61,572 bases of DNA from positions 1 through 61,572 of the forward strand of contig NZ_JALFLA010000042.1 of NCBI RefSeq assembly GCF_022775115.1, written 5' to 3'. The position numbers were made by a program, and so were the translations under genes. Below the pieces are notes generated by a model. It saw only the letters and a program-made list of their open reading frames with translations. It had not been told where the DNA came from and made no database searches. Shown piece after piece: positions 1 through 16,716 of this stretch (position 1 is the first letter of the stretch; each line of letters begins with the position of its first letter). The stretch comes from Agathobaculum sp. (GTDB lineage Bacteria > Bacillota > Clostridia > Oscillospirales > Butyricicoccaceae).

Positions 1-155
1 ATTGCTCAGCAGCTTGAGTGCAACTACTTGAATAGCCAGCAGGGGTCTGACAAGACCTCAGCTTTGCTATACCTTTTTGGGCCATCTTTTTTCACCACCA
101 CCATTCATTTTGGGGGTTGACTTCTAATAGTTAATCTTTCGATGTTGTCAATCAT
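1..155. other. Unassigned left edge, probable rearrangement junction
   Basis: Read on the minus strand, the cell-wall Gly-Trp repeat coding sequence that follows the SLH gene stops resembling that family at about position 155. The frame then runs through unrelated codons to a TGA at 105-107. I recognise no protein in 1-155. A small insertion-sequence end or a recombination scar is possible, but no inverted repeat or transposase is visible. Confidence 0.35.
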
Positions 156-245
156 CTGGTTATCGGAGAGCCAGCCATTCACTGGCTCCCCATCTTTGTA
201 GTTGCTCCACTGGCCGCTGTCGTTCTGCGTCCAGCCGTTTACGGT
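105..245 (-). pseudogene. In-frame Gly-Trp repeat stranded behind the UAG of the SLH gene
   Basis: Directly after TAG 246-248 the same minus-strand frame encodes 46 sense codons before TGA at 105-107. The first 30 include GWTQNDSGQW and KDGEPVNGW, the usual form of choline-binding-like cell-wall repeats that often follow SLH or adhesin domains. A single C-to-T change (CAG to TAG) would account for the stop. Similarity to such repeats fades after about position 155. Read as a lost C-terminal extension; readthrough is the alternative. Confidence 0.6.
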
Positions 246-3200
246 CTACGGGTCGATGACGATCTCCACAAACCGCCGCAGGACAGCGGCAACCTCGGCG
301 CGGGTGGCGGTTCCTTTCGGGTCGAACCGATTTCCGTCCTTTCCGGCCAGGATGCCCGCCTGCTGCATGGCTTTGACCGCATTCTTTGCCCAGCTACTGA
401 TCTGGCCATTGTCTGCAAAGGTTACTGCCTCCAGTGTTTTCGGGATGGGATACTCCATCTTTTCCGCATAATTTTTCATAATGACTGCCATCTGTTCCCG
501 GGTGATGTTGGTATCCGGGGAGAAGGTGGTTTCAGTCGTGCCGCCCACAATGCCGGTCTGCGCCGCCCAGTTGATATAAGGGACGTAGTAGGCATCCGCT
601 TTTACATCAGTGAACTTGCCTGCTTTGTAGTTGTCCGGGCTGATCCCCGCCAGCCGCCCCAGGGCGGTGACAAACATTCCTCTGGTCATGCCGGTGTTGG
701 GGCTGAAGGTGGTGTCACTGGTGCCGGAGAGCAATCCCCGGCTGGTCACAAAGAGGATGCTGTCCTCTGCCCAATGGCTGCTGATGTCGGTAAAGGCCGG
801 GGCAGGGTTCTTGTAACCTACACCGTAGATGCTGAAATGCTCTGCCTCGAAAATGACCGCTTGCTGGCCGGCGTCATAGCTGGATTTGCTCAGCCATTCC
901 ACCTTGCCGTCATCGTCCACATAGACTGCGTAAAGGTTGCCAGCCTGTTCACCCTTTGCCGGAATGTAAGGAATACGCACTGCGATCGTGTGACCGCCCA
1001 GGCCGGTGATGGAAACTTCCTTGCCGCCGGAGAGATGGGCCAGCGACAGGTCATAGGCCGGTCTTGTGCCGATGGCGGCTTTGGCCGCGGACGAGCCAGG
1101 TACATCCACCTGTTTTACCCGGAAGATAATGTCCCCGCCTGCGGATGTGGTGTCCAGCCATTTGAGCAGGTCAGCGTCCATTCCCTCAACAATCACGCCA
1201 TCAATGTCAATTTTCAGTTGTTTTACCTTTTCTCTGACGAGGGTATCCAACGTCTGGGGCTTTAGTATCACGCTGAAGGAGGTCTGGCCTGCCGCCGGGA
1301 TGATGGGGATGGTGACGGCAATCCTATTTCCGGTGTTGCCGTTCTTATTCGTCTCCGTCTTTGCCGCATTGATTGCAGACTGGACAGCACTGTGATCCAC
1401 CGCCGCGTTGCCGTCTGCATCCGGCTTGACGGGTTTGGTTTCGCTCGCGGCAGGAATGTCCGGCTTGATTTCGTCTGGCCGGTCTGCAATAGTGCGGGTA
1501 ACCGTTTTGTCCTGGTCATTGTATCCATCTACACCGGTATAGTCCGTACTTGAGTCATCGGCGACAGAGATATAGGCCGGATAGCCGCTGTTGCTCACAG
1601 TGGGAATAACCGTACCATCCACCCAGTTCCAGCCTTGGATGCTCAAGGCAGCCTGAGAAAGCGACTGGCCATAAGAAATCCGGTTGGCAGCTGTCGGTTC
1701 TACGACAGCGTCTGTAATGCGGATGGAAAAGGCTTTGGTAAAGTCAGTATTCGCCCCTTTTCCGTCGGCAATCGTCGCTTTCAAAGTAAATGCGCCTATT
1801 TTATTAATCGTTAGCATTTGGCCGTCTATCGCTGCATTTGCGGTATTTTCACCTTCGATGGACCAGACGATATCCTTGTTTGCAGCATTGGCAGGAGCGA
1901 CAGCGGCAAGGCTGCTTAAATTAAATTTACCTGTTTTGCTGATCTCCTCCAGGGTGATATCCTCTACGGGATAAAACATCGCACCGCTTATGGTAAAGGC
2001 CGCACTTGCCGTTCCCCAGATATTTCCTGAATCGTTGGACGTACGGTTGGTGTTAGTTGTGCAGGAGCCGCTATAGGTTCCGTTTACCGTTTTTACTTCA
2101 CTCACCACCGCGCCCTCCGGCAGCCACAGATACAGCTTGCCGTTGCCGTCAGTAAGCATATTGTCCATGCCATACGTATAATTGGAACCACCCCTTTTGA
2201 TGGTCAGCCCAAGCACTTGGGCGTTTTTGGATAGGGTACTGCCGCTGCCGATGGTGAGCGTGGCACAGTAAAGCAGCGCGTCGCTTGTATTCTTCGGCTG
2301 CTTGAAATCGTTTCGCGATGAATTGTGCAGCCTGTTCATATTTACGCTGCCGCCGGTAATGACGGCCTGTGTATATGGATTGGAAAGTGCTCCGCCTTCT
2401 GAGTAAAGCCTTCCGCCTTCCGCATAAACCGTTCCGCCCGTGATAGTCACTGTGCTTGGCGCGTTATATGCCCCGCCGATTCCGGCTGCACCATAGTTGC
2501 CTGACTTTGCTTCTATGCGCCCGCCATGGATACCGATCGTGGTTCCGCGCAGGCCAATCCCATCGCTATTTATCTCTGCCGTCAGCGTAGGATTTCCCTC
2601 GATTGCAAGCGTTTTTGCCCAAATGCCGACATTGTAACTAAACCGGTCCGCTGATTGGGCACTGTTTTTCACCGTCAGGCTGCCCGTTCCCTGGATCGTG
2701 AGCGCAGCTTCCGAGGCCGCCAGCACTGCGCCATGCCTTACGCTTGCCTCCATTGTGCTGCTTCCCGTAAGGACAAGGGTCAGATTTCCGCCGTTGCTCA
2801 CAAGGATGGCAGGCCGATTCTTATCTCCCGCGTTTATCGCCACATCCCGCAGCGTCAGCGTTACATTTGCGTTTTCCGCGATCTGAATCTGATGGTCTGT
2901 GGTAGTCACGCCCTCTGCCATCGTCACCTCAGCCGAGCCGGTCTCGCTGCAAGTCAGAAAGCCGTTATCATAGGTATAGGTGACGCCGGAGGAGTCTTTC
3001 ACCTGAAGCTGCGGCTGGCTGCCCCATATGGCCTCGTTCTGCGTGTCAAGATCGACGGTTTTATCCCCGTAGGTTTGGCCGTTTAACGTCACCGTTATGG
3101 GTTGCTCTCCGTGAAGAAGCATCGCTGCCTCGATTTGTGCTGTGGCTTTTCCGTTCTCCACGGTAAAGCTTGCCTGCTCATCCTTGTATTGATCTTCTCC

Positions 3201-4721
3201 TGTGCCGATGGTCACCGTACCGGTCACCGCTTCGCCGGATGCTGTCAGGCCGTCCGCATAAATGAGCAGCTTCAGGCTGTAACGATGCAGGATATGGCTC
3301 TGATCTACGTTTTGGGTATCAGCATTGATGTCACCGTTTACCTCCACAGAGCCGCCGGATATGGTCACACTGCCGCCGCTGTACTTGCCTGCATCCCCTG
3401 CGTAACCGATGTTGCCATTAGCGGTCACCTTGCCTCCGGTGATGGAGATCGAACCGCAGGGAATGGTCGTGCTGTCCGTATATGTGTTCTGTCCGCTGCC
3501 GATAGCGGCTCCTCTGCCTCCTGCCGTGGCGGTCACCTTGCCGCCTCTGATGGCGATGCTGCCCACCGAACCGCTGAGTCCACCGCCGATACCGGCCGAG
3601 CCATTTCCGCCGATGGCAGTCACATCGCCTTCGATGATTTCAATCACTCCCGTATTTCCGTCAAAGGAGCCGCCGATCCCAGCCGCGGACAGTCCTTCAT
3701 AGGAATGATGGCCGCCCTGGGCTATGACAGTTCCTCCTTCTATGCGGATGGTTCCCATCGTCCGCACGCCCTGCATCTGTCCGTTGAGGAAATAACCGGG
3801 GCCGCACGCGCCGATGCCGGCGGCGCTGCCTCCTCCGCCGTCGCCAACTGCCAGCAGGGAACCGTCGCTCTCACCGGTGATCGTCAATGTGGTTCCTCCA
3901 TTGACGCAGATTCCTGCCCCGCCGGTATAATAGCCTTTCAGCACATTCTCTCCCTTTAAGGTCAGGTTCAGTTTTGCCCCGTTTACAAGTGTAATGACGG
4001 AACAGTAGGAATAATCTGAATCCATGATGCCATAGCCCGCGCTTCGGTCGATGGTCAGATTCTCAATGGTGAGATTTAATGTCACGCCGTCAATGAACAA
4101 ACCCCTTCCACAGTCTGCCTGACCGGTGGAAACTGCGCTGCCGGTCAGAGTCTTTCCTTCATAATCGCTTAGGTTGCCGCTGTCGATACGAATCACTCCG
4201 AAATACGATTCCTGCAGCCTGCCGCCTATGACACTTTTGTCGCTAAGCGGCAGTTCGGCGATATTCAGGGTGTCCCCGTCAGCCATCAGCATCACTTCGC
4301 TGCGTTTCTCCATCAGCTCCAAGGCAGGGACGCCCTCCGCCATGCTGTATCCGTCAGGACGGGCGGCAGTCTCTTTTCCAAGGCAGGCGGAGAGGCCTAT
4401 ACCCTCAGCGGCGCAGACCGGGCAGTCGGGGTTAGCCGCATCCGCCCGGCAGCGAGTTTCACAGATACATTCTGCCGGGTCATCCCCGGATACGCCGGAA
4501 ACGAGTCCGCTGTCCTGCCGATTGCAGATTTCGCACACATAGGCGCAGGGTGTCCCTTCGGTGCAGCCGCATGTCTCCGTATGCTCTGTGTGGTGTTCAC
4601 ACAGACCCGTATGGGCGGTAGCTGCACCGGCACCCACCGCAAATACCGGCATCCCGGACATGGTAAAAGTCATGGCCGCCGCCAGTAAAACTGCGAGGGG
4701 CCGCTTGCAATCCAGCTTCAT
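246..4721 (-). CDS. Large secreted SLH-domain surface protein, C-terminally truncated by UAG
   Basis: This 1491-aa protein begins with a signal peptide (about residues 1-28, basic start then a hydrophobic run ending VFA). A Cys/His-rich segment follows (about 40-110), then a long Gly/Thr/Ile-rich repetitive region typical of right-handed beta-helix or carbohydrate-binding surface proteins. Three SLH repeats occupy about the last 170 residues (FTDISSHWAED, FTDVKADAYYVPYI and a third starting FADNGQISSWA). SLH repeats bind secondary cell-wall polymer, so it should be displayed on the cell surface. Its ATG overlaps the TGA of the upstream receiver-like gene (ATGA), implying translational coupling. 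The stop is TAG at 246-248; the same frame continues with a Trp/Gly repeat to about position 155, so the protein was probably longer. The ligand cannot be told. Confidence 0.85.
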   Translation of the reverse strand: MKLDCKRPLAVLLAAAMTFTMSGMPVFAVGAGAATAHTGLCEHHTEHTETCGCTEGTPCAYVCEICNRQDSGLVSGVSGDDPAECICETRCRADAANPDCPVCAAEGIGLSACLGKETAARPDGYSMAEGVPALELMEKRSEVMLMADGDTLNIAELPLSDKSVIGGRLQESYFGVIRIDSGNLSDYEGKTLTGSAVSTGQADCGRGLFIDGVTLNLTIENLTIDRSAGYGIMDSDYSYCSVITLVNGAKLNLTLKGENVLKGYYTGGAGICVNGGTTLTITGESDGSLLAVGDGGGGSAAGIGACGPGYFLNGQMQGVRTMGTIRIEGGTVIAQGGHHSYEGLSAAGIGGSFDGNTGVIEIIEGDVTAIGGNGSAGIGGGLSGSVGSIAIRGGKVTATAGGRGAAIGSGQNTYTDSTTIPCGSISITGGKVTANGNIGYAGDAGKYSGGSVTISGGSVEVNGDINADTQNVDQSHILHRYSLKLLIYADGLTASGEAVTGTVTIGTGEDQYKDEQASFTVENGKATAQIEAAMLLHGEQPITVTLNGQTYGDKTVDLDTQNEAIWGSQPQLQVKDSSGVTYTYDNGFLTCSETGSAEVTMAEGVTTTDHQIQIAENANVTLTLRDVAINAGDKNRPAILVSNGGNLTLVLTGSSTMEASVRHGAVLAASEAALTIQGTGSLTVKNSAQSADRFSYNVGIWAKTLAIEGNPTLTAEINSDGIGLRGTTIGIHGGRIEAKSGNYGAAGIGGAYNAPSTVTITGGTVYAEGGRLYSEGGALSNPYTQAVITGGSVNMNRLHNSSRNDFKQPKNTSDALLYCATLTIGSGSTLSKNAQVLGLTIKRGGSNYTYGMDNMLTDGNGKLYLWLPEGAVVSEVKTVNGTYSGSCTTNTNRTSNDSGNIWGTASAAFTISGAMFYPVEDITLEEISKTGKFNLSSLAAVAPANAANKDIVWSIEGENTANAAIDGQMLTINKIGAFTLKATIADGKGANTDFTKAFSIRITDAVVEPTAANRISYGQSLSQAALSIQGWNWVDGTVIPTVSNSGYPAYISVADDSSTDYTGVDGYNDQDKTVTRTIADRPDEIKPDIPAASETKPVKPDADGNAAVDHSAVQSAINAAKTETNKNGNTGNRIAVTIPIIPAAGQTSFSVILKPQTLDTLVREKVKQLKIDIDGVIVEGMDADLLKWLDTTSAGGDIIFRVKQVDVPGSSAAKAAIGTRPAYDLSLAHLSGGKEVSITGLGGHTIAVRIPYIPAKGEQAGNLYAVYVDDDGKVEWLSKSSYDAGQQAVIFEAEHFSIYGVGYKNPAPAFTDISSHWAEDSILFVTSRGLLSGTSDTTFSPNTGMTRGMFVTALGRLAGISPDNYKAGKFTDVKADAYYVPYINWAAQTGIVGGTTETTFSPDTNITREQMAVIMKNYAEKMEYPIPKTLEAVTFADNGQISSWAKNAVKAMQQAGILAGKDGNRFDPKGTATRAEVAAVLRRFVEIVIDP

Positions 4722-5098
4722 TTTATTTCACCCTCCTTATCCATTTGCCTAAATCCCTTTGCTGTCTGCAGCAGCTCAAGGACTGCCTGCTGCAAGCTTT
4801 GTTCCGCCACAGGCTTCACCAGAAATGATTCGACCTGCATCCTGCGGCTTTGGGGTTCAAATTCCGCCTGGTCACTGATCCACAGGAGAGGGATTGTTTT
4901 GCTGTACCCCCGTATGCTCATGCAAAAATTCATCCCTTTGGCTCCGTCCTCCATGACCACCACCGCGTCATAAGGCCCATCCCGCTGCATGGCGTAGGTG
5001 CAAAACACGCCGTTGTCAAAGCGGTCTACTTTGCCCAGCTTCATCAGCAAAGCGGTTTCTTTTTCTTTCTGGCTATAACTGCATAATGCAATCCGCAT
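4718..5098 (-). CDS. Receiver-like protein lacking the phospho-acceptor Asp
   Basis: This 126-aa single-domain protein has the length and strand/helix rhythm of a response-regulator receiver, including a final FLVKP motif. The acidic pair expected after strand 1 is absent (it starts MRIALCSYSQ). The residue aligned with the phospho-acceptor Asp is Met49 in YDAVVVM. It is therefore a pseudo-receiver by sequence, unlikely to be phosphorylated in the standard way. It lies 9 bp downstream of a second such gene and overlaps the SLH gene by four bases, so the three form one minus-strand unit. A protein-protein switch or adaptor role is inference. Confidence 0.65.
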   Translation of the reverse strand: MRIALCSYSQKEKETALLMKLGKVDRFDNGVFCTYAMQRDGPYDAVVVMEDGAKGMNFCMSIRGYSKTIPLLWISDQAEFEPQSRRMQVESFLVKPVAEQSLQQAVLELLQTAKGFRQMDKEGEIK

Positions 5099-5107
5099 TT
5101 TATACCT

Positions 5108-5461
5108 CTATTTCGTTATGGGCTTTATTGCTTCATACAGCTCCTGTTCAGAGCAGGCGATCGGCAGAAAAGCAGAAACCCGCAAATGATATGCCATCAG
5201 GGCAAAACTTTCGTCATCGCTGCACCAGATGACCGGTATTTTTGGCGCCAGTGCCCTTGCCTGTATGACCGCTTCAAGCCCTCTGGCCCCCGGCAGGGCA
5301 ATGACAACCGCATGGTATTGGCCCCGCCTGACCGCATGGGCAAGCTGCTTTTCGTTCCATAATTCGTCAATCTCAACCTGTTCATCCCCGCAAAAAGGGG
5401 AGCGCAGCCTGTTTTCAAACTGGTCAGCGTTTCTTAGCTCCGTACAAAGTGCGATCCTCAT
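5108..5461 (-). CDS. Second receiver-like protein lacking phospho-acceptor and Lys
   Basis: This is a 117-aa protein. I start it at the ATG at 5461 because GGAGAGGAGG lies seven bases upstream; an in-frame ATG at 5482 would have that sequence inside the gene. It begins MRIALC like its downstream neighbour, so the two look like a diverged tandem duplication. The acceptor position is Ala55 (YHAVVIA), the acidic pair is missing, and the conserved Lys-Pro near the end is replaced (FLPIAC). It is the first gene of the minus-strand unit running into the SLH surface protein and is divergent from the LytTR regulator. Confidence 0.6.
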   Translation of the reverse strand: MRIALCTELRNADQFENRLRSPFCGDEQVEIDELWNEKQLAHAVRRGQYHAVVIALPGARGLEAVIQARALAPKIPVIWCSDDESFALMAYHLRVSAFLPIACSEQELYEAIKPITK

Positions 5462-5568
5462 GTTCGGCCTCCTCTCCTGCATATTGAGAATAAAAAAACA
5501 GACCTTTCCACCTGAAAAGTCTGGTATTATTAGGGTAACATCTTGTCAAGGGAAAATCAACCGACTTT

Positions 5569-5600
5569 GTTCAAGACGCAGGTTTTCCGTTTAAGACGCA
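5569..5600 (+). promoter_or_regulatory. Candidate LytTR operator (tandem direct repeat)
   Basis: GTTCAAGACGCA (5569-5580) and GTTTAAGACGCA (5589-5600) form direct repeats 20 bp apart start to start. LytTR regulators such as AgrA bind about 9-bp direct repeats two helical turns apart, often containing GTTAAG. The pair ends 23 bp before the -10 of the LytTR regulator's own gene, where an activator would sit. Confidence 0.55.
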
Positions 5601-5620
5601 AGCTTTTTCCTGCGGTTTTA

Positions 5621-5629
5621 TGTTATACT
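5621..5629 (+). promoter_or_regulatory. Extended -10 for the LytTR-kinase operon
   Basis: TGTTATACT gives a TG-extended TATACT box about 30 bp before the regulator start codon. No good -35 is present at the expected distance, which fits activator dependence through the direct repeats just upstream. Confidence 0.5.
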
Positions 5630-5659
5630 GATACTGGGTTATTGTGCAAAGGAGATGGT

Positions 5660-6391
5660 ATGATGCAGATTGCAATCGTTGATGACAGAGCAGAGGACCG
5701 GAACGAATTGTCCGCCTGCCTTGAAAAATATATGCAGCAGAATCATCTGGACTATACGCTTACTGAGTTTGAGGATGCATAGCATTTCTTAAATGCCGCT
5801 GCACAGACAGATTTTCAGCTTGTCTTTATGGACATCTATATGGAGGGCATGGATGGGATGGAAGCAGCCAAAAGGCTGCGTCAGAAAAACAGGCTGTGCA
5901 AGATTATTTTTCTGACCATAACCGAAGATTATGCCAGAATGGGGTATAGCTTGTCGGCCACCTATTATCTGCTCAAGCCGCTTTCGCTTCATCAGTCGGA
6001 CTTTGATGAAGCGATGGAGCTGTGCCGGTTAAAACCGCCCTATGAGGTGATGACGCTCACGGTTACGGTTGACCGCCAAAGGCTGGAACTCCTCACAGAG
6101 AAGATCCTATACATAGATTACCAAAACCGTGTGACGCGGATTCATACGGCTGAACGTGTCACACCTGTCAGTGGGAGTTTTATGGAAGTTACCGCCGCAT
6201 TGCAGCAGGACAAGCGCTTTCTAGCCAGTTATCGCGGTATCTTAATCAACATGGATTATATCAGTCATATCGACAGCCAAACCATTCGGTTGATAAACGG
6301 AGAGGGGCTTCCCATCGCTCTGCGCAATGGAAAGCATATCCGGGAAAATTATCGTCAGTATGTTTTTTCCAAGATGGGAGGCATTGTATGA
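5660..6391 (+). pseudogene. LytTR response regulator split by an in-frame UAG
   Basis: The frame from ATG 5660 (ATG 5663 is equally possible; AAAGGAG lies just upstream) encodes a receiver with the acidic pair (IAIVDDRAED) and acceptor Asp (FMDIYMEGMDG). A LytTR DNA-binding domain follows (about residues 140-243). After 40 codons a TAG at 5780-5782 interrupts, and the same frame then continues without further change to TGA 6389-6391. An internal restart at ATG 5828 would lack the first two receiver strands and has no good ribosome-binding site. The gene overlaps the next one by ATGA. Together with the kinase at 8496 it would form an AgrA/AgrC-like pair. As written it should make only a 40-aa fragment, unless the stop is suppressed or is a sequencing error. 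Confidence 0.8.
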
Positions 6392-8488
6392 GCAAAGTCA
6401 AAATACGCCGGCGCGTTCTGGCTTCCTGTCTGGCCTGCCTTTTCTGTTTTACAAGCAGCCTGACTGTGTTTGCGGCTGCAGCCCCTTCCAACGCTGATGA
6501 AATACCAGAGAATCCTCCCAGTGCACACAGTGAGATGCCGGATGTGTCGGATAGCGGCAATCCAGAACCGCCAAAAGCACAAGCGCAGGTCCTTGTTACG
6601 GCAATACAGAACGAAACGGAACTGGCATCCCTGCCATCTTTTACCCTGCCTCTTAGAACTACCCCATCCAACGATGACCTGGCAGGAATCTATCGGCTGG
6701 CCCTTCAGTATCAGATCATTTCCGCCACTGTAACGGCGGACGGAGACAGCCGTGAGGAAACTTTTTCGGTCGCATGGGATTTTTCCGCCATCGACCAGAC
6801 CGCACTGGGCGAATACACGGCAGTGGGCAGGATTGAACTGCCGGAGGGCTATGCTTTTGGCGAGAATGTGCTGCGGGAACTTCAAATCCCTGTCCGGGTG
6901 GAAGAAATGCCGCCCGTTGTTATCACTTCGGTGGAGCGGTGGTAACCCTTACACAGATGCTTTTGCGCTCTTACAGGGCAGCGAAATGGAAGCGCTGGAA
7001 GAATTATTTACGTTTTCCCCTTACCATTTGGAATGTTATGCGGAAAACGGAAACAGTTACACCGCTATGGTGGAATGGGATTTTTGCGGCATTGATTTGA
7101 GCGCTGTTGGGCTGTACTATGCAAAGGGAAATCTCCCGCCCCCGGAAAACACTGTGTTTGCACAAGCCCTGAATTTGCCGGAGATTTCCATCCCTATTTC
7201 TGTGCAGGCATCCGGAAAGCCGGACATCAACTGTATGCTGGCGGGCAGAGGAAACCTCTATTTCCCGTGGGTGACGCCGCCGGGGAATCTGGAAGAAGTC
7301 AGCGTATGGCTGTCCGAAAACAACGGCCCCTGGATATGCTTGGAGGATGGCGTTTATGTTGGAGCAGAAATGCTTTCCATTGCGACCCGTTTGCTGACAT
7401 ACGGCAGCAGCTACCACCTGCAGGCAGATTATGATGGCGGGCAGACCGATATTCTATCCTTTACTTATTCGGATGAAATCGTCCTTGAGGGGTATCACGA
7501 AGGGGACCGGGACGGAGGGGATGCAGGTGGGAATCCGCCCGATGACATCGTCCAGCCAAGTCCCGAGCCTCCCGGAAATGCCGACGGCAGCAAAGAAAAT
7601 TCTGATGACCGGCCGCCTGTCCAATCTCCCGACCCACCTGCGGATACGCAGGTGGGTGATTCGGGTAAAAACGATGCCCCCTCCATACAGGAAAATGACA
7701 GCACAACCGGGGCAGAGCAACCGCACTCTGACGCTGATACCGATAACAGTCAGAAAAGTGAATCTCCCAATTTATCCGGTCAATCAGCCGGCGGTGCACC
7801 GCAGCCGCAGACCTCTGAAACGGAAGCACAGACCGATGCCGGCGAAATACCCCGCCCCCTCCCCCTTTCTCTTTTGAAGCCTTCGCGGGAAAGAAAAGAA
7901 GCGGACGAAAGCAGCCCAACCGTTCCCGCGGAAAGCAGAGCTTCTGAAAACGCTGCTTTTTTAGAAAGTTTCGGTGAAACCACAGACCGGATTTCCGGTG
8001 TACGCTTTTTCATGATGCTGCAAGCAGGCAACCAAAGAGCCGTGTTTTCCAAGCAGGGTATCACCATCAGCATCCCCAAAGACGCTTTGCCGGATGGAAT
8101 CCAAAACGAAGATCAGATCGCGGTCACCATCCAAAAGGAACAGGACGGTGGTTTCTCTTTCCTGTTTTCCATCAATGGAACCTCGCCTGAATCCCTTCCC
8201 GGTGTTTTTGTCATGCTGCCGTATTCTGGCAAGCCAGCGGCTGACACCCTGTACCTGTTGGATGAAAATGGTGCAGAATACTCTATGACGGGCTACGACG
8301 ATACGGCAAAAGCCGCTTCTTTCCAAATCGACCACACAGGGACTTATACCATTGCGGTAAAGGAAGATACCGCAGCTTCTTTGACAAAGGCAGCCGGCCC
8401 AGAGAGTCACCAGCCGTTCGCACGCTTTCCGGTTCTGTTATTTTTGCTTGTCCTGTCTGCCAGCGTGTTTTTCATAAAAAGGGGATGA
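6388..8488 (+). pseudogene. Secreted, C-terminally anchored protein split by a +1 frameshift
   Basis: The N-terminal part (from ATG 6388) has a signal peptide (basic start, then hydrophobic to VFAAAA at about residue 30). It reads VVITSVERW and then stops at TAA 6943-6945. The other part is open in the +1 frame and continues naturally as NPYTDAFALL; removing the T at 6943 joins them as ERW-NPYTDAF. The downstream part has two related beta-rich segments (MVEWDFCGIDLSAVGLYY mirrors VAWDFSAIDQTALGEY upstream), a Pro/Ser/Asp/Gln-rich linker (about 7500-7950), a further folded segment, and a C-terminal hydrophobic helix ending FFIKRG as an anchor. It sits between regulator and kinase in one operon and may be a cell-surface sensor or adhesin. 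It belongs to no family I can name. Confidence 0.7.
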
Positions 8489-8495
8489 AAATAGG

Positions 8496-10397
8496 ATGGT
8501 ATCTTCTGCTGTAAGAAAGTATGTTGCTTTATGTTTAATCTGCCTGTGTTCGTCCCTGCTTTTTCTTGGCCTGTATCAGTTCAATAATAAGTACAGTCAG
8601 GATACAATCCAGGCGGCAAATGGAATTCTGGTGCTTTCTGAGAGGGAACTGCAACAGTCGCCGCTGCGCTTTCTTGTATCCGGCTGGGCGTTCTACCCTG
8701 ACGCGCTTCTGAGCCCGGAAGAAATACGGCATTCCAGCCATTATATGCGGTATCTTTCCATCGGGGAGCAGACCAATTTTTCCAGTCCGGCAAACCCTTC
8801 TCCTTATGGCTGTGGGACTTACCAGATGACCTTGTTTCTGCCGGAACGCAAAGACGGATATGCGCTGGAAATTCCTGAAGTATTTTCTGCTTACACCCTT
8901 TACCTGAACGACGACCTGATCCTGCAAATGGGGAAACCAGCGTCCGGCACACCGCTGATTCAAAACCGTATAGTCACCTTTTATGGGGGAGAGCCGGTTA
9001 CCCTCACCATGGCGGTCAGCAACTACGATCATTTTTATGGCGGAATCATTTATCCTCCTGCTTTCGGGACGATGATTGCAGTAAGCACCTCCAGAGGCAT
9101 TCGGTTCGCAGTCTGCCTATTCGTCTGTACCATTATGTTCGTCTGTGCGCTGCTGGCCTTTTATTTCAGCAAGCGGATGAAACAGAAAAATACTCTGCTG
9201 TTCGGGCTGATCTGCCTTGCCATGTGCGGCCTTTCTTCCTATCCTGTGCTGCATATGTTAGCGGCGGTTCCTGTGTTCCCCTGGTATGCGTTGGAACTGT
9301 TCTGCATCTATCTGGCTGCATGGCTGATTGTGATCCTGCAAAACCGGATATGCAAGCCAGGATTTCTGCCCGCGGCCATCAGCAATGGGGTGGGCGCTGC
9401 CTTTTGTGTGTATGCGTTGGGGTATGGAATGATAGCCTCCCATCTTTCTCTGGCGGCGATCCGCTTCTTTTCGGCATCTGTCTTTTGCTATAAAGCGGCT
9501 TGCGCACTCTATCTGCTTATCACTGCTGTGCTTGCCATTCACAGGGGACAGAAACGCAGCAAAGCGATTTTCTATGCTACCGTGGCCGCAACCTGCGCCT
9601 TTGTATGGAATCGGCTTCTGCCGGTTTATGAGCCTGTTATTGGGGGATGGTTTGTGGAATGGAGCAGCTTCTTTTTGGCAGCGGCGATCGGCTATTCCCT
9701 CTGGCGCGATGTGGTGGAAGGATATGGGAACAGTCTGGTTTTTCAGGAGGAGCGCAAGCAGGTCATCCGTCAGCTCTCGATGCAGACCGAATATAGCCGC
9801 CAGATTGCTGAAACGGCAGCAGAAAACCGGAGGCTGATCCACGACATCAAACATCATCTGCGCACCATAGACCGGATGGCAGCCGAACACGGACAATCGG
9901 ATATACGTCTATTCCTGTCCCAGGTGGAGGAGCAGGTGGCGGCAGTATCCAGCTATTCCCATGTTGCATTCTGTCAAAATCCCGCCGTAAATGCGCTGAT
10001 CGAATATTACTATGGCATGATGCAGACGCAGGGGACAGAATTTCAGGTGCGGCTCGATCTTCCCGATCAAATACCACTGACAGATGTGGAGCTGTGTACG
10101 GTGCTTGGCAATCTGCTAGACAATTCAGTAGAAGCGTGCGGCCGGCAAAAACATGGTGCGCGCCGTATTCTGGTCGCGGGAGAAACCAGAGGCAGCATGT
10201 ATTTTCTGAAGGTGGAAAACACTTACAACGGTCAGACAATGCAAGAGAGCAGTCTGTTCCTTTCCCGAAAAGGGATCTCCCCCTATCATGGGATCGGGCT
10301 TTCCTCCGTCCGGAAAATTATTGAAAGCCATGGCGGCGACCTTGATATTATCCCCCGCGAGGGCGTGTTTCTTGTGGGGATTACGATAGGGTTGTGA
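8496..10397 (+). CDS. Multi-TM GHKL sensor histidine kinase
   Basis: This 633-aa protein has an N-terminal TM helix (about residues 8-27), an extracellular domain of about 170 residues, about seven TM helices (about 200-400; a 7TMR-DISM-like layout), then a short coiled stretch. The phospho-acceptor box HDIKHHL has His at about residue 449. A GHKL ATPase domain follows with N-box LGNLLDNSVEA (about 536) and G-box GIGLSS (about 600). The H-box and ATPase type match kinases that pair with LytTR regulators. It follows the anchored protein by 7 bp. The kinase looks intact although its presumed regulator is interrupted by UAG. The signal is unknown; peptide or cell-wall sensing is inference. Confidence 0.85.
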   Translation: MVSSAVRKYVALCLICLCSSLLFLGLYQFNNKYSQDTIQAANGILVLSERELQQSPLRFLVSGWAFYPDALLSPEEIRHSSHYMRYLSIGEQTNFSSPANPSPYGCGTYQMTLFLPERKDGYALEIPEVFSAYTLYLNDDLILQMGKPASGTPLIQNRIVTFYGGEPVTLTMAVSNYDHFYGGIIYPPAFGTMIAVSTSRGIRFAVCLFVCTIMFVCALLAFYFSKRMKQKNTLLFGLICLAMCGLSSYPVLHMLAAVPVFPWYALELFCIYLAAWLIVILQNRICKPGFLPAAISNGVGAAFCVYALGYGMIASHLSLAAIRFFSASVFCYKAACALYLLITAVLAIHRGQKRSKAIFYATVAATCAFVWNRLLPVYEPVIGGWFVEWSSFFLAAAIGYSLWRDVVEGYGNSLVFQEERKQVIRQLSMQTEYSRQIAETAAENRRLIHDIKHHLRTIDRMAAEHGQSDIRLFLSQVEEQVAAVSSYSHVAFCQNPAVNALIEYYYGMMQTQGTEFQVRLDLPDQIPLTDVELCTVLGNLLDNSVEACGRQKHGARRILVAGETRGSMYFLKVENTYNGQTMQESSLFLSRKGISPYHGIGLSSVRKIIESHGGDLDIIPREGVFLVGITIGL

Positions 10398-10573
10398 AAA
10401 ATCGAGGCGGACAAGCTGTGCGTATTGCAGACCCCCGCTTAGTCGGCGAATTGGAAAAGACCGCCCGGAAAGTAATGAAGCTGATTCGGAACGGGGGCTT
10501 GTTCCGCTCCTGCACAACCGGACGCCCTGCGCATCAAAAAAAAACGATGCTGACAGAATTGGCAGCATCATAA
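10394..10573 (+). CDS. Possible 59-aa ORF overlapping the kinase stop
   Basis: A GTG at 10394 overlaps the kinase TGA (GTGA). It opens 59 codons beginning VKNRGGQAVRIADPRLV and ending TELAAS before TAA at 10571-10573. The composition is basic and soluble and the overlap would allow coupled translation, but I recognise no family. A hairpin facing the other strand overlaps its end. It may be the remnant of a longer gene at the island's right boundary. Confidence 0.25.
   Translation: MKNRGGQAVRIADPRLVGELEKTARKVMKLIRNGGLFRSCTTGRPAHQKKTMLTELAAS
10539..10570 (-). terminator. Intrinsic terminator
   Basis: The stem GATGCTG/CAGCATC has a ten-base loop and is followed on the minus strand by an uninterrupted run of nine T. 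It would stop transcription coming leftwards from the AraC gene before it enters the kinase gene antisense. Confidence 0.6.
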
Positions 10574-10718
10574 CAGGATGTAAAAATCAGCCTTGCCTGT
10601 ATCGGCTTCCTAACCCGAAAGCATTATCGCGGAAATGCTCAATCACGCAGCAGAAAGAAGAACAGCGTGACTTTACGCCACGCTGTTCGAACTAAACTTT
10701 ATTAAACTTGTGTTATTA

Positions 10719-10747
10719 TACGCTGCCGTCAGCGTGACTTTTTTATT
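10719..10747 (+). terminator. Intrinsic terminator
   Basis: The stem ACGCTG/CAGCGT with loop CCGT is followed by GAC and TTTTTT on the plus strand. It lies between the kinase operon and the convergent AraC gene. Confidence 0.5.
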
Positions 10748-10751
10748 ACTG

Positions 10752-11630
10752 CTATGGCATGGCCTTGCCGTGCATGGCTTCGAGATACTGCTTCTTGTAC
10801 CGCATGGGCGAGATGCCCACCACCTTGGTAAAAATGGTGTTGAAATAATTGGTGTTGTCGTAGCCCACCAGCGTGGCGATGTGCGTGGCTGTGTAGTCCG
10901 TCGTGGTCAGATAGGTCTGCGCCAGCCCAATGCGCCGCCGTATCACATACTGGATGGGCGAATAACCGACACAGCGCTTGAACACATGCGAGATATAGGA
11001 CTCGCTGCACCCAAACGCCTCGGCGATGGCGGCCAGCTGCATCGGCTCGGTATAGTGCGCGTCCAGATAGCGGCGGATGCGGTCGGCCATTTTCATGTCA
11101 TCCTGCGAGCTTTGGTGGACGAAGGAGGCCTCGTCCAGCCCCCGGGCGATCAGTAGAAAGGCCGTGCCCAAGCACTGGGCGAGCGCCTTGCCGGCCAAAT
11201 CGGTATCAAGGCTCTGGTAGGCCTGCTCGCACAGCTGGCTGAGAAACTCAAACTGCATACCGGAGGATCGCACCGGATGGCTGCTCGCCGGGATGATGTG
11301 GTTCTGGGGCAAGCCCTCAAACTGCAAGCCGAAAAAGGCAAAGCAATAGGTGCCGACCTCTGTGCCCGAGATGCTGCGCACCTCGTGGGACTCATCCTGA
11401 TTGTAAAACAGGATATCGCCCTCCTGAATGGGGAAGGAATGGTTGCGGATCGCATAGGAGGCAAAGCCCCGGTAAACCAGCAGCAGCTCGCAGAAGGAGT
11501 CGTGGCTGTGCATCGGGCGGTCGTGCTTTGCGCCGCCGAACTGCTGCTTCGTGATATAGAGGAGCGTTGGATGCTTGCCGCCCGCAAACGCACGCGCAAG
11601 ATGATCGGATTCAAAATACGGATTCAGCAC
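10752..11630 (-). CDS. AraC-family transcriptional regulator
   Basis: This 292-aa protein starts at GTG 11630, with GGGAGG eight bases upstream. An N-terminal cupin sensor domain (about 35-140, HSHDSFCELLLVYRG) is followed by two helix-turn-helix motifs in the last 100 residues (LAAIAEAFGCSESYISHVFKR and HIATLVGYDNTNYFNTIF). The arrangement is typical of regulators of sugar or surface-carbohydrate use; the effector is unknown. It stands alone. It ends with TAG (10752-10754), which shows that UAG works as an ordinary stop codon here. Confidence 0.85.
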   Translation of the reverse strand: MLNPYFESDHLARAFAGGKHPTLLYITKQQFGGAKHDRPMHSHDSFCELLLVYRGFASYAIRNHSFPIQEGDILFYNQDESHEVRSISGTEVGTYCFAFFGLQFEGLPQNHIIPASSHPVRSSGMQFEFLSQLCEQAYQSLDTDLAGKALAQCLGTAFLLIARGLDEASFVHQSSQDDMKMADRIRRYLDAHYTEPMQLAAIAEAFGCSESYISHVFKRCVGYSPIQYVIRRRIGLAQTYLTTTDYTATHIATLVGYDNTNYFNTIFTKVVGISPMRYKKQYLEAMHGKAMP

Positions 11631-11830
11631 ACGGCAGCACCTCCCTTGGGCACAGCGTATTTTTTGCCTATATTATCGCACAAACAGCCCGGACACTTTT
11701 CAACAATCCTGCACTTTTTGCCCAGCGTTCACAAAGAATATTGCACAAAAATAGGGGATGCGGCTTATAAGACTACACATTCTTGGCTGCGGGCGGCAGG
11801 GCGGCCTTATCCCGCAGGGCGCGCCGCCCC

Positions 11831-12574
11831 TCAAGCCTTGCTGAGCCGCTTCTGCATATAATCGTGCGCGTTCTGCTCGAGTGTGTCGTCCAGAATCAGC
11901 AGCGGCTCGGCCGCGCCGTACTTGCGCTCGAGCGCAGTTTGCAGGATAAAATCGCACAAAACCGGGTTTTTGGGCAGCAGCGAGCCGTGCGAATAGGTGG
12001 CGAACACATTGCGGTAGCGCGCCCCCTCGGTCTGGTCCTCGCCGTTGTTGCCAAAGCCCGCCACCACCATGCCGAGCGGCGCGACGCTTTCGCCCAGATA
12101 GGTCTTGCCCGAATGGTTTTCAAAGCCGACCACCAGCGCCCCGCTGCTTTCGGGCGTGGTTTGGAACATATAGTTGCCGATCATGCGCTCCTTCGCGCCG
12201 ACGGTGTGGATATCGAGCGCGCCGATGAAATCGAGCTGCACGCCGTCCCACGTCTTGTAATACTGGCCGAGCATCTGGTAGCCGCCGCAGATGGCGAGAA
12301 AGACCTTGTCCTCCTCGACCGCCGTGCGGATATCGCGCCCCTTGCCCCCGGCAAGGTCGCGCAGCAGCACCTCCTGCTCAAAATCCTGCCCGCCGCCGAT
12401 GAAAAAGATATCGTACCCGTCAATATCGAGCGACTGGCCGATCGAGCACTCGTCTACCGTCACGCCGATGCCGCGCGCGGCAAGCCTGCGGCGCAGGGTG
12501 ATGATATTGCCCCGGTCGCCGTACAGGTTGAGGATATCCGGGTAAAGATGGCAGATATTGAGTTCGGTTTTCAT
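11831..12574 (-). CDS. gatD: Lipid II isoglutaminyl synthase, glutamine amidotransferase subunit GatD
   Basis: This 247-aa class I-type (CobB/CobQ-like) glutaminase supplies ammonia to MurT for amidating the D-Glu of lipid II to D-isoglutamine. The nucleophile Cys is in AICGGYQMLG and the catalytic His in YSHGSLLPKNP; the N-terminal segment MKTELNICHLYPDILNLYGDRGN is characteristic of GatD. It begins 14 bp after murT, with GGGGCGGAGC as ribosome-binding site. The complex acts at the inner face of the membrane, before MurJ-type flipping. Confidence 0.93.
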   Translation of the reverse strand: MKTELNICHLYPDILNLYGDRGNIITLRRRLAARGIGVTVDECSIGQSLDIDGYDIFFIGGGQDFEQEVLLRDLAGGKGRDIRTAVEEDKVFLAICGGYQMLGQYYKTWDGVQLDFIGALDIHTVGAKERMIGNYMFQTTPESSGALVVGFENHSGKTYLGESVAPLGMVVAGFGNNGEDQTEGARYRNVFATYSHGSLLPKNPVLCDFILQTALERKYGAAEPLLILDDTLEQNAHDYMQKRLSKA

Positions 12575-12588
12575 TTGCTCCGCCCCCC

Positions 12589-13959
12589 TTATTCGTAAAA
12601 TGCCTTGACGTTCGTGCGGCGGCCGATCTCGCCGCGCAGGTCGAACATCGCGGTGTAGGTCGGCATCAGAAAGGCGGGCGTGTCGTCCGCGCCGATCTCG
12701 TCGAGCAGCGCGCCGAAGTCACGCACGACCGCCAGCCTGTCCAGCGGAAAGCCGGCGTATTTGAGCCGCAGCGCCATATCGTCCGCGCGGATGCCCGAGA
12801 CCAGCACGCGCGTAAACCGCGCCTGCTGCGCGGCGAGCGACTCAAAATCAACGTCCCATATCCACGAAATATCCGTGCCGTCGGCAAATCGGTCGTTGAG
12901 CAGAAAGGCCAGCTTGCACACCCCGTCGTCATGCGCGATCAGGTTGATGACCTGATTGAAGCCCGCCGGGTTTTTGACCAGCAGCATACGCGCCTGACAC
13001 GCGCCAAGGCTGAACTGCTCGGCGCGGCCAAAGCCGCACTCAAACGCCGCCAGCGCGCCGAGCGCAGTCTCCTCCCCGATGCCGACGACGTGCGCAGCCG
13101 CGGCCGCCGCCGCCGCGTTGTAGATGTTATACCCGCCGGGCAGGTTGATGTGTACCTCATGCTCCCGGCCATACACCGAGAGCAGCACGTCGGAGGCATC
13201 TGCCCCGGCGGACACCACCTTGGTCACCGCGATATCGGGCGCGTGGCGCCGGTAGCCGCATTTGGGGCAGCGGAAGCCACCCAGATGGCCGTAGGTGACA
13301 TAATCGTATTCATATTCGGTCTTGCAGCGGATGCAGTAGGGCGCGTCGGACAGCTCGTGCGCCGCATCCTCGTAGATCGGCACGTTGACGCCGAACCAGA
13401 CCACCTTGTTGGGCAGGGCCCGGGCGAGCGAGGCGGTCAGCGAGCAGTCGGCGTTGAGGCACACGGTCGCCTCCGGGATGTGTGTAATGCCCTCGCGGAT
13501 GGCGTTTAGGGTGTGAGTGATCTCGCCGTAGCGGTCGAGCTGGTCGCGGAAGATGTTGTTGACCACCAGACATTCGACCGGCAGGAACTTGCTCGCCGTG
13601 CGGAAGGCGGCCTCGTCGCACTCGATCAGCGCGTGGGTGTACGGGCATTTGCCGGAAAGCGTGCAGTGCTGCGCGAACACGGCGATGATGCCCGTGAGCA
13701 GATTGGCGCCCGATTTGTTGGCAAAATACCGCAGTCCCGCGTCCTCAAACGCCTTTTCGATCATGCGGGAGGTGGTGGTCTTGCCGTTCGTGCCGGTGAC
13801 GACCGTAACCTTTACCCCTTGCGACAGCGCGCCGAGGATATCGCCGTCTATGCGCAGCGCGAGCTTGCCGGGCAGGTTGGTGCCGCCGCGGCCAAGGCGG
13901 CGCAGCACCGCGCCCGCAGCCTTGCACACGAGCACGGCCAATCTGGTTTTGAGTTTCAT
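12589..13959 (-). CDS. murT: Lipid II isoglutaminyl synthase, Mur-ligase-like subunit MurT
   Basis: This 456-aa protein has a Mur-ligase P-loop (VTGTNGKTTTSRM, about residue 55). A four-Cys zinc ribbon (CIRCKTEYEY to CPKCGYRR, about 205-235) is diagnostic of MurT, and the C-terminal domain ends DLRGEIGRRTNVKAFYE. It activates the second-position Glu of the stem peptide with ATP. Start ATG 13957-13959 is preceded by AGAGGG. The same open frame runs on upstream for another 1.8 kb antisense to the SLH gene, but this is a GC-rich shadow with no MurT residues. Confidence 0.93.
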   Translation of the reverse strand: MKLKTRLAVLVCKAAGAVLRRLGRGGTNLPGKLALRIDGDILGALSQGVKVTVVTGTNGKTTTSRMIEKAFEDAGLRYFANKSGANLLTGIIAVFAQHCTLSGKCPYTHALIECDEAAFRTASKFLPVECLVVNNIFRDQLDRYGEITHTLNAIREGITHIPEATVCLNADCSLTASLARALPNKVVWFGVNVPIYEDAAHELSDAPYCIRCKTEYEYDYVTYGHLGGFRCPKCGYRRHAPDIAVTKVVSAGADASDVLLSVYGREHEVHINLPGGYNIYNAAAAAAAAHVVGIGEETALGALAAFECGFGRAEQFSLGACQARMLLVKNPAGFNQVINLIAHDDGVCKLAFLLNDRFADGTDISWIWDVDFESLAAQQARFTRVLVSGIRADDMALRLKYAGFPLDRLAVVRDFGALLDEIGADDTPAFLMPTYTAMFDLRGEIGRRTNVKAFYE

Positions 13960-14002
13960 AGGTTTATCCCTCTGTCTGTGGTGGATTTTGATAGATGGTA
14001 TC

Positions 14003-14032
14003 AGTATACCGCATTTTGCGGTGCGGCACAAG
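14003..14032 (-). promoter_or_regulatory. murT-gatD promoter
   Basis: On the minus strand TTGTGC (14027-14032) lies 18 bp from TATACT (14003-14008), placing transcription start about 40 bp before murT. Confidence 0.5.
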
Positions 14033-14105
14033 CGCGCCCGCCGCTTTATTTCGGCTTTAAGGGCGGCGCGCAAAAAAATAACTACACAAATGCATGAAAT
14101 AATGG

Positions 14106-14116
14106 TAAAATAGAAA
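14106..14116 (+). promoter_or_regulatory. Extended -10 for the second SLH gene
   Basis: TGGTAAAAT is a TG-extended -10 about 30 bp before the start codon of the SLH gene at 14143; no convincing -35 is seen. Confidence 0.4.
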
Positions 14117-14142
14117 ATAACCATACCAACGAGGTGATTGCT

Positions 14143-16716
14143 TTGAAAAGATTTTTGTCCGCCGTGCTGGCGGCTGCCATGCTGCTGTGCGCGCTGCCGG
14201 CGGCGCTTGCCGTTTCCGACATTGACAGCCACTGGGCCAAGACGTATCTGACCGAGCTGCACAAGATCGGCGTGATAAACCCGTCCTCCTCGGGCAACTA
14301 CACGCCCGATCAGGCGATCATGCGCTGGGAGTTCATGCGCTACATCAACCGCGCGTTTGGCTTTACCCAGACCGCCGAGATCAGCTATACCGACGTACAG
14401 CCGGGCGATGTATACTACGAGACCGTGCAGATTGCGGTCAAATACGGCTACATCAACGGCGTGGGCAACAATAAAATGGCGCCGACCGCCACGCTGACCC
14501 GCGAGCAGGCGGCCACCATCCTCGGCCGGCTGCACAAGTACACGCCGGCCGCCAACACCGACGCGCTCACCTTTACCGACAAGGACAAGCTGGCCGATTA
14601 CAGCCGCGCCTATGTGGCCGAGGCCGCCAAGCAGGGCTACATAGGCGGCTATCCCGACGGCTCCTTCCGCCCCACCGGGCTTGTCACCCGCGCGGAGATC
14701 GCCAAGATCCTCTATTTCTTCCTCGGCTCGCCGCTGCGCACGGAAAACGGCACCTACGGCGACGCCGACCTGCGCAGCACGACCAGCAACGTGACCATCT
14801 CCGCCGCGGGCACGCTGGCCGACGTGACCGTGCCCGGCAACCTGTACATCACCGAGGGTGTCGGCGCGGGCAGCGTGACGCTGACCAACGTCACCGTTGA
14901 CGGCGATATCATCATTGGCGGCGGCCGCGTGACCATGAACGGCGTGTCCGCGGTCAACATGATCGTCTCCGGCGCGCTCGGCCCCGATCCCGAGGTCATC
15001 TGCACGGGCAACACCAACATCGGCTATACCGAGGTACAGACCGACGCTGTGCTGCGCGAAAGCGGCCTGTCGGCCTCGGCCGGCGGCCTGTCCGACCTGA
15101 CCGTTACCGGAAACGGCGTGTCGCTGACGCTTGACGCGGCCGTGTGGAGCACGACGACCACGGGCGCAGCGGCCATCCTGACCACGGGCAGCACCTCGAT
15201 CACCGAGCTGAAGGCGGGCGGCCGCACGACCGTGACGGGCGGCGGCGCGGTACAAAAGGCTATCCTGAACGCCTCGGGCTGCGAGCTGCTGATGCGCCCC
15301 GGCTCGGTCGAGCTGGGCAGCGGCGTAACCGCCACCATCGCGGGTGAAACCGTCACCTCGTCGACCAGCGTGTCCGTCCAGCCGTCCACCCTGTCGATCA
15401 ACTTCGGCAATGCCGACGCGATCGCCCATTCCTACGATTTTACCTTCAACGCGGACAAGAACGACCTCGTCCGCGTCACCGTGGGCAACGATGTCCTGCG
15501 CATGGGCAGCGACTATAACCTGCTGACCGACCGAAACGGCATCCGCATCTACAAATCCTACCTGTCCACACTGACGGCCGGCGTATACACCGCCGAGCTG
15601 GTGTTTGCCGACGGCTCGACCGCTGCCATCGGCCTTTCGATGACCGGCTCGGTGCAGGGGCTGGTAAATCCCACCCAGCTGACCTTCGACCGGTATGACG
15701 CCTCGCCCAATTACGCCGACCTGACCGTTACCGTCACGCTGCCCGCCGGTGTGCTGCTCGATTCGGTCAAGCTGGGCAGCACCGTGCTCGAGCGCGGCAC
15801 GGACTATACCTACAACCACGCCACCGGCCAAGTCACGCTGATGCGGGACGCACTAAACAAGCGGGGCAAAGGCTCGTACACGGTCAGCTTTGTGCCGAGC
15901 AAGGGTCTGCCGCTCTCCTGCCTGCTGAACATTGTCGACACCGCGCCGGTCAACGAGATCCTGCCGAGCGAGGTCGACTTTGACTCCAACGTAAACGCAG
16001 GCGGCTATGCCGATATCACCGTCACGCTCAATCCCGCCAGCGGCGCGACGCTGAAGAACATCCAAGCGCGCGGCAAAACGCTCGAGGAAAACTGGCAGTA
16101 TAAAATAAACGGCAATCAGGTCACCATCAACCGCACGGCCATCGCCGAGCTGGGCCAGAACAACGCGACCTATGTCGATTTCACCTTTATCATGTCCAGC
16201 GGCGTAAATCCGGTGCTGCGCGTCAATTTTGTCACCACCTATCCGCTCACCGCGCAGGTGGTGGACGACCTCGGCCTGCCGATCGAGGGGGCGACCGTCA
16301 CCTTCACGCCGACCGAAAACCTGACCGGCACGGCCACGCAGACCATGCTGACCGATATCAACGGACAGGCCACCGTATACGTCAAGCGCGGCTCGTACAC
16401 GGTCGCGGCCTCGCATGAGCGCTTCACCGCGCCGCTGAGCCAGACGGTCAGCGTATCCTCGCCCCGCAAGGTGCAGCTGGCCGGCGAGATACTGGAAAAC
16501 GTGCAGCTCATCGTCACCAACCGCTACGGCGCAATGCTTTCGGGCGCGTCGGTCACGGTCGGCGGCAAGAGCGTGACCACCGGCGCGGACGGCACGGCCT
16601 CGTTCAGCCTAAAGCGCGGCAACTATGTTGCGCAGGTCTCGTGCGTCGGCTATACCACGCAGTCGGTCACGCTGTCCGTCACCGGCCCGATCCGCGAGCG
16701 CGTCATGCTTGAGTGA
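14143..16716 (+). CDS. SLH-anchored surface protein with Ig-like and carboxypeptidase-regulatory-like repeats
   Basis: This protein of about 857 aa has a signal peptide (FLSAVLAAAMLLCALPAALA), then three SLH repeats (about residues 25-200: DIDSHWAKTYL, YTDVQPGDVYYETV, FTDKDKLADYSRAYV). A Gly/Thr/Val-rich beta region follows (about 210-400), then several beta-sandwich modules. The end holds two modules with GATVTF and GASVTV motifs typical of CarboxypepD_reg-like folds. I prefer TTG 14143 because GAGGTG (14131-14136) is six bases upstream; a GTG at 14134 would lie inside that site. SLH repeats are N-terminal here, opposite to the protein at 246. It is monocistronic, closed by a strong terminator, and probably a structural cell-envelope protein. 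Confidence 0.85.
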   Translation: MKRFLSAVLAAAMLLCALPAALAVSDIDSHWAKTYLTELHKIGVINPSSSGNYTPDQAIMRWEFMRYINRAFGFTQTAEISYTDVQPGDVYYETVQIAVKYGYINGVGNNKMAPTATLTREQAATILGRLHKYTPAANTDALTFTDKDKLADYSRAYVAEAAKQGYIGGYPDGSFRPTGLVTRAEIAKILYFFLGSPLRTENGTYGDADLRSTTSNVTISAAGTLADVTVPGNLYITEGVGAGSVTLTNVTVDGDIIIGGGRVTMNGVSAVNMIVSGALGPDPEVICTGNTNIGYTEVQTDAVLRESGLSASAGGLSDLTVTGNGVSLTLDAAVWSTTTTGAAAILTTGSTSITELKAGGRTTVTGGGAVQKAILNASGCELLMRPGSVELGSGVTATIAGETVTSSTSVSVQPSTLSINFGNADAIAHSYDFTFNADKNDLVRVTVGNDVLRMGSDYNLLTDRNGIRIYKSYLSTLTAGVYTAELVFADGSTAAIGLSMTGSVQGLVNPTQLTFDRYDASPNYADLTVTVTLPAGVLLDSVKLGSTVLERGTDYTYNHATGQVTLMRDALNKRGKGSYTVSFVPSKGLPLSCLLNIVDTAPVNEILPSEVDFDSNVNAGGYADITVTLNPASGATLKNIQARGKTLEENWQYKINGNQVTINRTAIAELGQNNATYVDFTFIMSSGVNPVLRVNFVTTYPLTAQVVDDLGLPIEGATVTFTPTENLTGTATQTMLTDINGQATVYVKRGSYTVAASHERFTAPLSQTVSVSSPRKVQLAGEILENVQLIVTNRYGAMLSGASVTVGGKSVTTGADGTASFSLKRGNYVAQVSCVGYTTQSVTLSVTGPIRERVMLE

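Follow-up and report, generated by a model that had tools for sequence, protein, structure and literature searches.

Probable recent pseudogenisation of a horizontally acquired, mobile LytTR/GHKL surface-signalling island in Agathobaculum sp.

Introduction

Signalling systems in which a LytTR-domain response regulator is paired with a GHKL (HATPase_c_5) kinase include AgrA/AgrC and ComE/ComD, and GHKL/LytTR pairs have many jobs. Acquired genomic islands that decay typically carry pseudogenes and insertion sequences and suffer partial deletion. The locus described here combines the two subjects. It lies at the left end of the window, by which we mean the whole analysed stretch of 61,572 nucleotides. 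The window corresponds to contig C35 in the genome bin of a gut bacterium, Agathobaculum sp., with 88 contigs (2.19 Mb, estimated 95.7% complete); it comprises the entire contig, and its left end starts inside a repeat. A regulator with receiver and LytTR domains, albeit broken, was found with a GHKL kinase close by. An earlier note, made from the sequence alone, had reported three gene-breaking lesions in this region and proposed an acquired surface-signalling system that was being switched off, phase-varied or kept as a silent reservoir. Its observation was right, and somewhat understated. Among the titles and abstract openings of the matches listed in a literature search, no work on the island locus was recognised.

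Results

Gene content and composition

From left to right, the window begins with the 3′ end of an IS110-family element, followed by a gene with SLH stretches and two small receiver-like genes on the minus strand, and by the regulator, anchored-protein and kinase genes on the plus strand (Table 1). The island was described in the earlier note as an A/T-richer block, and G+C content was indeed 53.2% at positions 141-10400 versus 61.3% at 10741-61572. To its right, where some 45 genes had been counted as unbroken, a greedy ORF tiling that takes in apparent wrong-strand ORFs was 86% coding, and 11 out of the 20 ORFs scanned against Pfam matched a family, none of these 11 being visibly split. By this rough test the right-hand genes look whole. 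Three successive small ORFs (66-72 aa) without Pfam matches lie on one strand at 18772-19485. No Rfam family reached gathering scores in L001 and L009 (C18).

Table 1. Coordinates of the island, its left end and its right flank in the window
Feature	Positions	Strand	Basis
IS110-family insertion sequence, 3′ end: final codons of the transposase plus the non-coding right end	1..139	+	Common to contig ends C72, C26, C85
Remnant of the SLH gene's cell-wall-binding tail, past the in-frame TAG, cut by the IS	140..248	-	In-frame translation against the protein of Clostridium fessum, unbroken at this place
Large (1491-aa) surface protein with Cys-rich N-terminus and three SLH stretches, lacking its C-terminal tail	246..4721	-	PF00395 (2e-35); C. 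fessum relative
Receiver-like protein 1 (126 aa), stand-alone and open, lacking the acidic pair and phospho-acceptor Asp	4718..5098	-	PF00072 (0.0014, below curated cut-off); alignments
Stand-alone receiver-like protein 2, 117 or 124 aa depending on start, open, without acceptor residues	5108..5482	-	PF00072 (7e-5, below curated cut-off); alignment
LytTR response regulator, broken by in-frame TAG at 5780-5782	5660..6391	+	PF00072 and PF04397 past the stop; open in two relatives
Exported protein with C-terminal membrane anchor, frame broken near 6943, two pieces	6388..8488	+	Two ORFs in different frames; Pfam; open relatives
Segment shared with one end of C18, fork between locus versions	8381..8664	+	Two mismatches; 8525-8664 identical
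Sensor histidine kinase of the GHKL type (633 aa), open	8496..10397	+	PF14501 (2.6e-18); 83% C. fessum, 82% Roseburia faecis
Right-hand edge of the insertion, reaching the araC-type gene at its 3′ end	10398..10751	.	Same-genus similarity resumes at 10740
araC-type regulator, right flank	10752..11630	-	Pfam; adjoins rbsC-type permease in G005 and G004 (empty site)

When aligned with the regulators, neither small protein has the acidic pair or the acceptor aspartate of receivers, at positions that we presume from general receiver anatomy. Structure prediction offered no help: mean pLDDT was 41.9 for small receiver 1 (and 34.0 for the anchored protein of C. fessum), too poor to use, so the receiver reading rests on sub-cut-off Pfam matches and alignment. 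In small receiver 1, 83 of the first 90 residues were invariant across three genomes. A search of the class sample with this protein returned the window's own copy alone (1 out of 391 genomes at E ≤ 1e-10), and neither small receiver was detected in any of five distant loci (tblastn, E ≤ 1e-3). Stand-alone proteins without a phosphorylatable aspartate appear to be the less ordinary feature of the island. The kinase carries HDIKHHL at residue 449, which we take to be the His box.

Lesions in the regulator, anchored-protein and surface genes

PF00072 and PF04397 were both matched above cut-offs by the part of the regulator that follows the TAG, and the 40-aa piece preceding it had no Pfam match. 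At this position the frame is open in C. fessum and R. faecis, which bears out the in-frame UAG claimed at 5780. The one-base frameshift claimed at 6943 is likewise supported by the relatives, in which the anchored protein is open over 693 and 712 aa; its Big_4 match falls below the cut-off in the window and above it in C. fessum. Unbroken counterparts of all three genes are present in C. fessum, as are those of the two genes reached by the contig of R. faecis, which ends before its SLH gene.

The frame of the SLH gene stops at a TAG (246-248) with a cell-wall-binding-like stretch in frame downstream, and all three SLH stretches precede the stop. The C. fessum copy (L105 867-7631, 2254 aa) reads through this position into choline-binding-type repeats. 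Homology of the window's tail to that protein extends down to about base 140 only, and there the IS110-family element begins. Bases 1-139 show 75% similarity to the terminus of a C32 element whose ORF matches PF01548 and PF02371; DEDD and Transposase_20 domains are both present in this related element, of which the window holds the counterpart of the end only. The window aligns with contigs C26, C85 and C72 up to positions 139, 140 and 145, respectively, and the contig itself stops inside the element. The earlier note had described the SLH gene as ending at a UAG with coding sequence continuing. The stop and the homologous tail are as described, but positions 105-140 are IS sequence, so the supposed coding sequence runs into the element. 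The SLH gene is thus cut twice, by the TAG and by the IS110-family element, the latter being a fourth lesion that the earlier note overlooked. The TAG by itself may be harmless, since in the more distant locus L121 the SLH-protein relative ends just past its SLH domains, near the position of the window's TAG, and nothing like a wall-binding tail was found past its stop.

Other traces of IS110-type elements were seen in the bin. A solo 3′ end, apparently without an adjacent transposase, lies on contig C23 (L011 1609-1732). A roughly 91-bp repeat, which seems to represent the upstream end of an element of this type, occurs at 400-490 of C18 (L009) and 1462-1552 of C32 as well as on C22, C17, C84, C13 and C38, with similar stretches in the genomes G001, G014 and G477.

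Relatives of the island

The contig scan with the kinase, which reaches close relatives only, gave 44 pattern matches, two of which encode relatives: C. fessum (L018, 83% amino acid identity) and R. faecis (L019, 82%). Both carry the regulator, anchored protein and kinase in the same order with open frames. The two kinases are 96% identical to each other though the genera differ, which fits a mobile cluster. Synonymous divergence between these two loci varies by gene, from about 0.05 in the regulator to 0.36 in small receiver 1; this unevenness suggests that recombination may have occurred within the island.

No close copy of the kinase was found among nearer kin. Within the genus, 20 out of 25 genomes (the own genome included) match the kinase at E ≤ 0.001, and the best non-self match is 27% identical. 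A single one of the 86 other genomes of the family passes E ≤ 1e-80, with 31% identity, and none of the 390 other genomes in the class sample passes E ≤ 1e-150. In the sample from the family of C. fessum, which we take to be Lachnospiraceae in GTDB (NCBI places the species under Clostridiaceae), 5 out of 396 others pass E ≤ 1e-120 with 36-42% identity. The right flank, by comparison, is genus-like: all 25 genus genomes (again with the own one) match somewhere in 10400-16000, the part compared.

The order regulator, large protein, kinase was kept in all five distant loci, the large protein being detectably similar in three and an SLH relative present in one. In L120 (9164-13150) the anchored protein and the kinase are fused in a single frame of 1328 aa, which supports a common function of the two. 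The search for a viral or plasmid carrier gave none: no relative of the kinase was found among viral contigs, and matches to 25 plasmid records were all below 60% identity, with none over 80% of the query.

Insertion site and a second version of the locus

Four same-genus stretches with a match to the araC-type gene that flanks the island were compared. In two of them (G005 and G004, which are mutually alike) this gene is the convergent neighbour of an rbsC-type permease gene, the araC-type gene ending at 10723 and the permease gene at 10789 of L099 in G005, and the two alignments lying 63 bases apart in G004. The araC-type stretches of G012 and G014 have other arrangements. G005 also has an SLH-type ORF at L099 8648-9571, on the other side of the araC-type gene. 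In the bin studied here the araC-type gene is on the window and the rbsC-type permease gene on contig C18 (1433-2431), so the two contigs most likely represent two sides of one insertion. The empty site in two same-genus genomes, the restriction of close relatives to distant hosts and the shift in G+C content together give good support to the proposal in the earlier note that the island was acquired.

C18 also shares sequence with the island. Its left end corresponds to window positions 8664-8381; the two sequences are identical over 140 bases from that end, with a mismatch at base 141. An overlap of 140 bases followed by divergence is the signature of a fork in a short-read assembly graph with k=141. 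C18 carries the first 56 codons of the kinase only. Past the fork there follow a short Cys-rich coding fragment, the 91-bp repeat, a 68-codon recombinase-like fragment recognised by eye, and then the permease gene. The regulator, the small proteins and the surface gene are all missing next to this kinase start. Among the listed matches to the kinase region (40 of the 44 candidates scored) no further contig appeared. C18 would run on through the kinase to the araC-type gene. The simplest reading, drawn from contig ends, is that a shorter version of the locus probably coexists in the same sample; it could also be a second copy within one genome.

Codon comparisons

Codon comparisons were made among three sequences without an outgroup, and the rates cover the branches of the window and of the relative together. 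Measured against C. fessum and R. faecis, dN/dS was 0.084 and 0.099 for the broken regulator and 0.122 and 0.123 for the open kinase. The broken regulator thus bears the signature of strong purifying selection; since its ratio is low and not above that of the kinase, its break is recent; a gene left to drift unconstrained over such a span would have looked otherwise. The anchored pieces gave 0.20-0.26 and the small receivers 0.11-0.36, with dS ranging from 0.44 to 1.48 over these genes. The SLH gene, compared separately over 399 codons, gave 0.187. The ratio of the anchored pieces exceeds that of the regulator, which counts against recent decay; however, this gene is also fast between the unbroken relatives (0.50 for the 3′ part, and 1.23, from very few changes, for the 5′ part).

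Discussion

We consider recent pseudogenisation of a horizontally acquired, mobile LytTR/GHKL surface-signalling island to be the best explanation, with a probability of roughly 0.77. Unbroken homologues exist elsewhere, the island is absent from close kin, the site is empty in two of the four stretches compared, and the window's copy is lesioned. Of the fates listed in the earlier note, being switched off is supported in the sense of decay, by the three point lesions, the IS cut and the second version that joins the kinase start. From these observations we infer the order of events, the loss of function and the coexistence of two versions in one population. A mobile island, seemingly from a distant relative, would have entered the genome between the araC-type gene and the rbsC-type permease gene, carrying the SLH surface protein, two receiver-like proteins, the LytTR regulator, its membrane-anchored partner and the GHKL kinase. 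In working copies, to judge from gene order and protein families, the kinase and the anchored partner would probably sense a cue on the outside of the cell, with the LytTR regulator in turn controlling the divergent surface gene. The window's copy has a truncated regulator and a truncated anchored partner, and the wall-binding tail of the surface protein has been lost to the stop and the IS110-family insertion; the circuit is most likely dead, with the kinase and the two small proteins still open. The version on C18 suggests that part of the population is without most of the island. A quorum-sensing role, as the earlier note had entertained, has no specific support because GHKL/LytTR pairs serve many functions, and its silent reservoir, while compatible with the data, is a reading to which nothing points.

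Decay need not be complete. Open frames persist in the kinase, in both small proteins and over most of the SLH protein, and parts of the island may still work. Such openness could even reflect a new role found for the kinase, the small proteins and the shortened surface protein, with loss of everything else. The tail-less SLH-protein relative in L121 and the near invariance of small receiver 1 are in keeping with this, but the conservation mostly dates from before the breaks and C18 lacks the surface gene, the small proteins and the regulator beside its kinase start, and we regard such a domestication as very unlikely. A bolder reading, possible though rather doubtful, is that the island is an undescribed multi-part module that moves between families as a unit, in which the pseudo-receivers might serve as decoys or as brakes that work independently of phosphate; the window and C18 would then capture its loss in progress from a living population.

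Each point lesion could, on its own, be a consensus error, and the genes might be intact in the organism. With an 88-contig bin, a window that begins in a repeat and two locus versions, a mixture of strains is plausible. Errors would, however, have had to place three point lesions beside an IS cut in one 10-kb island while the right-hand ORFs, by the rough test, stayed whole; homopolymers near the lesions do not exceed three bases, unlike typical long-read error, and no contig end in the bin matched the lesion sites (40 of 44 candidates scored). Assembly or consensus error is therefore an unlikely explanation. Surface and signalling genes are frequent targets of phase variation, and the earlier note had offered reversible on/off states as one reading; two arrangements of the locus do occur in the data. 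The proposal finds no support at the lesions themselves, where no simple repeat was found (the longest homopolymer within 11 bases is three, and there is no tandem array), and repeat tracts were rejected as its mechanism. Two of the lesions are moreover single stop codons, which revert at a low rate. Inversion is also unlikely: among 23 short inverted pairs of 14-26 nt, one of 18 nt brackets 6943 and one of 14 nt brackets 5780, both imperfect and, like the whole search, without a chance control, but an inversion would create neither a stop codon nor a one-frame shift within a gene. Taken as a whole, reversible switching seems to us extremely unlikely. Scarcely credible is a reading of UAG as an amino acid in the island, which would turn the two ambers, both in otherwise conserved coding sequence, into sense codons. 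It was rejected: no CUA anticodon was present among the 36 tRNAs found in the genome, a set that is incomplete in that Ile and Pro tRNAs are missing; the release factor gene at 19549-20634, which we take from its motifs to be of the RF1 type, is open; and TAG ends 6 out of the 36 right-hand ORFs of at least 150 aa, including the Pfam-supported araC-type gene, although at least one of the six is apparently on the wrong strand. Recoding would also leave the frame break and the insertion unexplained.

Pseudogenisation of an acquired island is an ordinary process, here with good local detail. The locus offers a checkable case of a borrowed surface-signalling cluster in decay, for which an empty site, a second version and unbroken relatives are all available. 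These relatives, in turn, represent a small signalling module open to direct study, including two conserved receiver-like proteins that lack a phosphorylation site.

Compared with AgrA/AgrC and ComE/ComD, the island is alike in having a regulator with receiver and LytTR domains and a kinase with a GHKL ATPase domain in the same cluster and on the same strand. It differs in the membrane-anchored partner that lies between the regulator and the kinase (and is fused to the kinase in L120), in the divergent giant SLH protein and the two stand-alone receivers, and in its broken regulator. The likeness to IS110-family elements, as outlined in PMC11208160, lies in the DEDD and Transposase_20 domains of the related C32 element and in the non-coding ends; the window differs in holding a 3′ end only. 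With decaying acquired islands it shares a foreign composition, multiple lesions, low dN/dS of a broken gene, a site that is empty in two relatives and the existence of a shorter version, with no essential difference.
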